Notes under the pieces: model-generated
Told to the model about the DNA's origin: nothing
What the model saw: only the letters and a program-made list of their open reading frames with translations
Databases searched by the model: none
Assembly: GCA_012103575.1 (NCBI GenBank)
Contig: WLWN01000001.1
Coordinates: 1,069,792-1,133,791 of the forward strand
DNA from: Kiritimatiellia bacterium
GTDB lineage: Bacteria > Verrucomicrobiota > Kiritimatiellia > WLWN01
Direction: 5' to 3'
DNA: 64,000 nucleotides
Made by a program: the position numbers and the translations under genes
Shown here: positions 50,598 to 51,602 of the stretch, one piece after another
Layout of the letters: each line of letters begins with the position of its first letter
Numbering within the stretch: position 1 is the first letter of the stretch

Positions 50598-51602
50598 TCA
50601 CAACAATTTCTCCACCGCCTCTTGTGCATCCATTTCTTCAGTTACATCAAAGGCTGACTCTTGGTATCCATTGATTTCCACATTAGGATTTTTTGCCAGC
50701 TGAAGAACTTTCTCTTCAGAGGCTCCTTGCTGAGCGAGCAATTGACCAAAACATGTATCGCGAAAAGAGAGCAGTCTTTCGCCTCCATGCTCGGTAAAAA
50801 ACCGTTGTATTTCAACCATTCCTTCAAGGGGGCCCGCTGATAAATGAACACCGTTAGAACTCGAACTCACATCCGCCATCCCCAATTCATCTTTCTGTTG
50901 AAGGAATAGATTACGCAAAGATCCTTTTTCGGCCTGAACAGGATTGGTAGCGCCAACTAGTTCTGTCCGTAAATCTGTCCATGGCTTATCACTCATACAT
51001 TCCAGGGCAACTAACGCATTCGATGAAGCATAAAATGGTTCAAGTTGATAGGGATGAAAAGGATTCAAAATAATGTACCTCTGCCCCTGTATTTTTATAG
51101 ATAATGCATAAGTCCCCCCCCCTAGTTTTTCGGTCCCAAGATTTGCGGAAAAGGCCGAAAGCGCTAACGGAGTAAAAGCTGCGCATGCTTCAAGGAATTG
51201 ATGTCCACCCAACACCTTTGCGCCTTGATTGACTTCTTCTGAAAAATGTTGATGCAGCATGTCTTGTGCATGCTGTGTAATCGCCGGCTCCCCGTTAAGT
51301 GATATTTGATTAATCACCCCGTAATGATGATCCATGATCCGATATTCATACAAATAATCACCGTTCAAGACACATACAGCTCCAATCTGTATTCCCCACT
51401 CATCAAGAACGTTAAAGACAAGCTCTAACCCTTTCGACAAGTGTACCCCTTGCTGAATAGCGGTGAGTTCAGGTTTTAGAAACAGGACAAACTGATGCCA
51501 TCCGGGATTTTTTGTTTGTTCATAAGGCTGAACCCATTCACTCACCGGATTTCCGTTATATGATGTGATCTGTTGACAGGTCTCATATATTATTTTGATC
51601 AT
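50598..51602 (-). CDS. NDK-like protein with a large internal insertion
   Basis: 334 residues. The C-terminal half aligns by eye with nucleoside-diphosphate kinase: ALVALECMSDKPWTDLRTEL, VGATNPVQAEKGSLRN and SSSNGVHLSAGPLEGMVEIQ, where the His in NGVH sits at the phosphorylated His of NGTH in E. coli Ndk; IQRFF follows as in other Ndk. The N-terminal half has FVLFLKPELT (like IIKPDA) and MDHHYGVIN. About 100 residues separate the halves, and ~70 follow. Classical Ndk is ~140 residues. It could make NTPs from NDPs or be a regulatory relative. The gene is intact. Confidence 0.6.
   Translation of the reverse strand: MIKIIYETCQQITSYNGNPVSEWVQPYEQTKNPGWHQFVLFLKPELTAIQQGVHLSKGLELVFNVLDEWGIQIGAVCVLNGDYLYEYRIMDHHYGVINQISLNGEPAITQHAQDMLHQHFSEEVNQGAKVLGGHQFLEACAAFTPLALSAFSANLGTEKLGGGTYALSIKIQGQRYIILNPFHPYQLEPFYASSNALVALECMSDKPWTDLRTELVGATNPVQAEKGSLRNLFLQQKDELGMADVSSSSNGVHLSAGPLEGMVEIQRFFTEHGGERLLSFRDTCFGQLLAQQGASEEKVLQLAKNPNVEINGYQESAFDVTEEMDAQEAVEKLL

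Follow-up and report, generated by a model that had tools for sequence, protein, structure and literature searches.

An enlarged, split nucleoside-diphosphate kinase as the probable working Ndk of a lineage of Kiritimatiellia

The gene that we analyse here codes for a protein of the Kiritimatiellia, P0001, which is very probably an enlarged nucleoside-diphosphate kinase (NDK), split in its sequence by a large insert, and the working Ndk of its lineage. We put at roughly 0.85 the probability that it is an active kinase and serves its bacterium as main or only Ndk, both its catalytic activity and its place as sole Ndk in the cell being what we infer from its predicted fold, its conserved residues and the content of its genome. 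Conservation of Ndk, a small housekeeping enzyme, is very wide; most bacteria have it in the standard small form, and the classical protein consists of one compact domain of about 135-150 residues. With 334 residues, a large insert and extensions, P0001 is therefore better described as a variant that has the fold and the motif of the family than as a classical Ndk.

The gene lies in a window of 64,000 nucleotides, the whole stretch of DNA that was analysed. The open reading frame of 334 residues first noticed in the letters is real, and it is read on the minus strand; its parts are collected in Table 1. This frame is open for no more than two codons ahead of the ATG at 51602. A GGAG in the segment 51601-51620 precedes that start by 13 bases, and an out-of-frame ATG (51612) by 3. 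The coding strand also carries a run of nine G (within LGGGTY; a run of C on the plus strand at 51114-51122), a possible slippage site and one of three runs of C or G of at least eight in the window.

Table 1. Parts of the P0001 gene, in positions of the window
Feature	Position	Strand	Basis or remark
Whole gene, 334 residues	50598..51602	minus	ATG at 51602, stop codon counted in; ends of homologues roughly coincide
N-terminal extension, residues 1-34, ahead of core strand 1	51501..51602	minus	NDK structural matches begin at residues 31-36
First half of predicted NDK core, residues 35-95: strand 1 with K43 (KPE), helix, strand 2, helices with HY94	51318..51500	minus	Model, structure matches and alignment
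Insert, modelled alone as residues 96-181, of which about 80 are extra; predicted helices and four short strands	51060..51317	minus	Spacing and insert-only model
Second half of predicted NDK core, residues 182-270: F182, strand 3, GATNP, R230, N250-x-x-H253, S255, E264	50793..51059	minus	Model, structure matches and alignments
Codon of predicted phospho-accepting H253	50844..50846	minus	Computed from the frame; H in 37 of 38 relatives
C-terminal extension, residues 271-334; S-A-F-D-x-T-E-E (D319, E322) is conserved	50601..50792	minus	Alignments; mostly beyond the structural match

Taken as a single sequence, P0001 is barely visible to the standard tools. It scores 21.6 bits (E 2.2e-4) against the Pfam NDK family (PF00334), over residues 195-271 only and below the gathering score of 27, which a long-form relative in another genome of the class (G010) just reaches, and 22.9 against an NCBIfam NDK model whose cut-off is 155. 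Used as a lone query, it found no relative in a first scan of the genome contigs, and nothing significant in the PDB, where its best match was an unrelated heme enzyme (E 0.2). It would thus be conceivable that P0001 resembles NDK by chance, or in part only, and is no homologue at all, but this we consider close to negligible, as a profile built from 17 of its relatives matches many solved NDKs, down to E 2e-7, and the structural likeness described below takes in the first half of the core as well. The scores below threshold are a limit of the models, and the Pfam match, although weak, is real, as is the likeness to NDK that the original prediction had seen in the region of the catalytic histidine (GATNP, residues 217-221; NGVH, residues 250-253). 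When profiles are compared by sequence only, no more than the C-terminal 47-48 columns align with canonical or tandem NDKs.

It is at the level of the fold that the relationship becomes plain. The AlphaFold2 model of P0001, computed from 13 aligned sequences, has a mean pLDDT of 93.6 and a pTM of 0.90, and the best 50 matches in the PDB are all NDKs, whether found by Foldseek (probability 1.00) or by VIA (Z 13.0-13.8). The top VIA match, Ndk of Mycobacterium tuberculosis (4ane), aligns 126 residues with a Z of 13.8 and an rmsd of 1.9 Å. This confident model and its fold matches rule out chance similarity. As the best structure match spans residues 35-278 of the model, the ferredoxin-like NDK core is predicted to be present in two halves, preceded by about 34 residues and followed by about 60. 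A predicted structure without that core had been named beforehand as what would overturn the assignment; the model has the core, and the C-terminal extension of the fold that had been announced is there too.

Most of the residues expected of an active enzyme accompany the fold. P0001 has the N-x-x-H-x-S motif with the catalytic histidine (N250, H253, S255), together with K43, T219, R230 and E264, which we take to be the residues of the phosphate site and the glutamate that orients the histidine. Among 38 aligned relatives, drawn from at most 30 loci per genome search so that they do not cover all 62 matching genomes of the class, and with identical matched stretches counted once, N250, S255 and R230 are found in all, K43, F182 and H253 in 37, and R212, T219 and E264 in 36. 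When L019, a canonical Ndk from this class, is added to the alignment, its K11, F59 (the phenylalanine of the nucleotide site), T93 and R104 fall on K43, F182, T219 and R230, and its N114, H117, S119 and E128 on N250, H253, S255 and E264. Two placements are looser: R212 sits five places before the glycine of GATNP, where the canonical R87/R88 sits four places before it, so that MAFFT puts T213 on R87; and the placement of Y94 on Y51, the canonical tyrosine of the nucleotide site, is ambiguous, MAFFT setting H93 against canonical H54. The 38 include two divergent members of the split family, both from one taxonomic family (f40) and one of them in an open frame of 441 residues. The first (L098, in G297) is the only one of the 38 in which the catalytic histidine is missing, NVIL replacing NxxH, while the second (L099, in G310) keeps the histidine and departs at the position of E264.

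In its predicted core fold and its active-site set of K, T, R, N, H, S and E, P0001 is thus like the classical Ndk/NME proteins (PF00334; M. tuberculosis Ndk, PDB 4ane and 1k44). It differs from them by the insert that separates the first helix pair from F182, by the distance from threonine to histidine, by its extensions at both ends and by falling under the Pfam gathering score. The insert can be sized from the spacing of Y94 and F182. P0001 and 10 of the 12 other aligned rows have 88 residues there, L057 has 85 and L060, a relative of about 300 residues, has 87, against the 8 residues that separate Y51 from F59 in the canonical Ndk; some 80 residues have therefore been inserted, fewer than the approximately 100 first proposed, although the split itself stands. 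The second difference is smaller, 34 residues from T219 to H253 against 24 from T93 to H117. These lengths also bear on the idea that a fusion, a frameshift or an error of assembly produced an oversized ndk. The run of nine G is a typical spot for indel errors, but the 12 long-form rows keep 85-88 residues between Y94 and F182 and 34 between T219 and H253; an artefact, which we hold to be very improbable, is rejected on this conservation of lengths across independent assemblies.

How would such a protein work? By the usual ping-pong reaction, H253 would take the gamma-phosphate of ATP and pass it to NDPs and dNDPs. In ordinary Ndk the helix pair covers the nucleotide, and it is at the tip of this pair that the extra domain of about 80 residues would sit, while the Kpn-like loop would be about 10 residues longer than usual. 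The insert, the longer loop and the C-terminal extension would together probably alter the packing of the oligomer or the access to the site. Modelled alone with 12 relatives, the insert (residues 96-181) is predicted with a pLDDT of 94.5 and a pTM of 0.85; in the PDB, Foldseek found no match for this model below E 0.97, and the best Z given by VIA among 999 chains was 2.7, a null result that does not show a new fold. What the insert does can accordingly be stated only as conjecture. One tentative idea, which we hold to be rather doubtful, is that it forms a domain whose fold has yet to be solved, placed over the nucleotide site, and makes the enzyme a regulated or differently assembled Ndk; if this were true, one bacterial lineage would have swapped an unregulated housekeeping enzyme for a gated one.

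The content of the genomes brings us to the role of the protein in the cell. P0001 is the only NDK match in the host genome, a member of the Kiritimatiellia with 3.14 Mb in 2 contigs and a completeness of 94%, and the search for a classical ndk that had been proposed as a check thus came back empty. The 334-residue form is found in 11 genomes of the class (G000, G010, G017, G030, G042, G052, G061, G071, G091, G319 and G321), one of which (G061) is a complete chromosome, CP120722.1, of Kiritimatiellota bacterium B12222, while G319 and G321 are less than 90% complete. In all 11, a search with PF00334 up to E 10 gives the long protein itself as its top match; the next best in any of them has an E of 0.13 or worse, and a tandem-NDK profile matches none. 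The same family has a twelfth genome, G081 (85% complete), with neither the long form nor a match to PF00334. The 12 named loci of the genome contigs, that of CP120722.1 among them, bear the labels Kiritimatiellia, Kiritimatiellota, Kiritimatiellaeota, Pontiellaceae, Verrucomicrobia, PVC group or plain bacterium. The 12 sampled long-form proteins make one clade (support 100/96) in a tree from which the two divergent f40 proteins were left out, so the 11 genomes amount to something like a single evolutionary event rather than 11. The sister of this clade (L095) comes from another class, in a genome (G587) that also has an NDK of canonical length.

The rest of the class looks different. Among 345 class genomes, 192 match PF00334 at E 0.001 and 184 exceed its cut-off; among 97 relatives, the window's genome counted, the figures are 81 and 76. 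The matches over the cut-off that were listed lie mostly in open frames of about 390-450 residues, and a single full match of canonical length was seen in two of the 345 genomes (G008 and G318). In most of the other Kiritimatiellia that have an NDK, it is a tandem form of about 390 residues (L020-L048). Each of the 16 such proteins aligned holds a pair of NDK units. In the first, neither the catalytic lysine nor the histidine seems to be present; the second half, as in P0001, carries a catalytic motif of NDK type (GPTDPSKAxPGSVR, NAAHASDS). Both proteins are enlarged Ndks of one class; the tandem protein differs from P0001 by the repetition of the unit, and profile comparison aligns only 47 columns of the two. 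Nearer to P0001 are relatives of about 300 residues (L011-L018 and those of G432 and G553), found in other Kiritimatiellia and in some other Verrucomicrobiota. They have the same architecture, with the insert at the same site (in L060, Y and F are 87 residues apart), but shorter ends and 21-24% identity, and they form a separate branch; unlike the long form, many share their genome with a tandem or canonical-length NDK. An NDK over the cut-off accompanies them, for example, in G060, G070, G297, G432, G553 and G587, and none over the cut-off is present in G130, G133 and G142. Finally, six genomes of one family (f10: G009, G024, G036, G048, G057 and G067, 93-95% complete) and two others (G077 and G095) match neither PF00334 nor the split-NDK or tandem profiles, the whole of this negative set being 93-97% complete. 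Among open-licence PMC papers, we found nothing on NDK in Kiritimatiellota, nor on proteins with tandem or fused NDK domains.

It follows that the lack of a classical ndk is not by itself proof that P0001 fills the role of Ndk, since these other Kiritimatiellia seem to live without any gene of the family. This is one of the observations that lend some weight to another reading, akin to the new regulatory relative suggested when the gene was first noticed, in which P0001 keeps the fold and the phosphorylation of the histidine while acting as a regulator or as a specialised phosphotransferase, for instance in a protein-histidine relay, with adenylate kinase or other enzymes carrying out the bulk of NDP phosphorylation. 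The host genome does have an adenylate kinase gene; the similarity to classical Ndk is weak and domains have been added; and the shorter branch of about 300 residues often coexists with another protein of the NDK family. Yet the residues that hold nucleotide and phosphate are almost fully conserved, and no second NDK-family match exists in any of the 11 long-form genomes, so that we regard a purely regulatory or specialised role as unlikely. The alternative offered at the same time, that P0001 is the Ndk of this lineage, is the one that we favour, because the core is present and the genome has no classical ndk.

The surroundings of the gene support the orthology of the long forms and say little about their function. 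In the window, the divergent neighbour of P0001, at 51766, is the gene of an aminotransferase (Aminotran_1_2; PRK09257, aromatic amino acid transaminase), and on the other side P0001 precedes the genes of a TRAP transporter (DctQ, DctM). At another locus (L049), the order is the same aminotransferase, the NDK, an RsmB-type methyltransferase and TRAP genes, and a further one (L059) has the aminotransferase and the methyltransferase in common. Of 13 loci, 9 (L049-L055, L058 and L059) have, as the next gene downstream, one for a protein whose domain is an RsmB/F methyltransferase (PF01189, under the rsmB cut-off of TIGR00563), counted with only the longest of overlapping frames kept, so that an antisense frame may mask a neighbour in L056; its reading frame and that of the long NDK often touch. 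In the window, the methyltransferase is not downstream of P0001. An origin from phage was considered and rejected: the protein belongs to no PHROGs family, tblastn gave no match in 50,697 phage records, and a viral structure library gave one match under E 0.001, to an unnamed protein of 170 residues, the NDK of Tupanvirus being at E 0.15.

The unusual form of P0001 has a practical consequence: standard family models miss or underscore the long form, and genome annotations may therefore label these bacteria as lacking ndk. More generally, the Kiritimatiellia hold canonical-length, tandem and two split forms of NDK within one class. We can therefore see this class as a natural test of how far the fold of a housekeeping enzyme can be rebuilt, and of whether the genomes that seem to be without every one of these forms truly live without Ndk.
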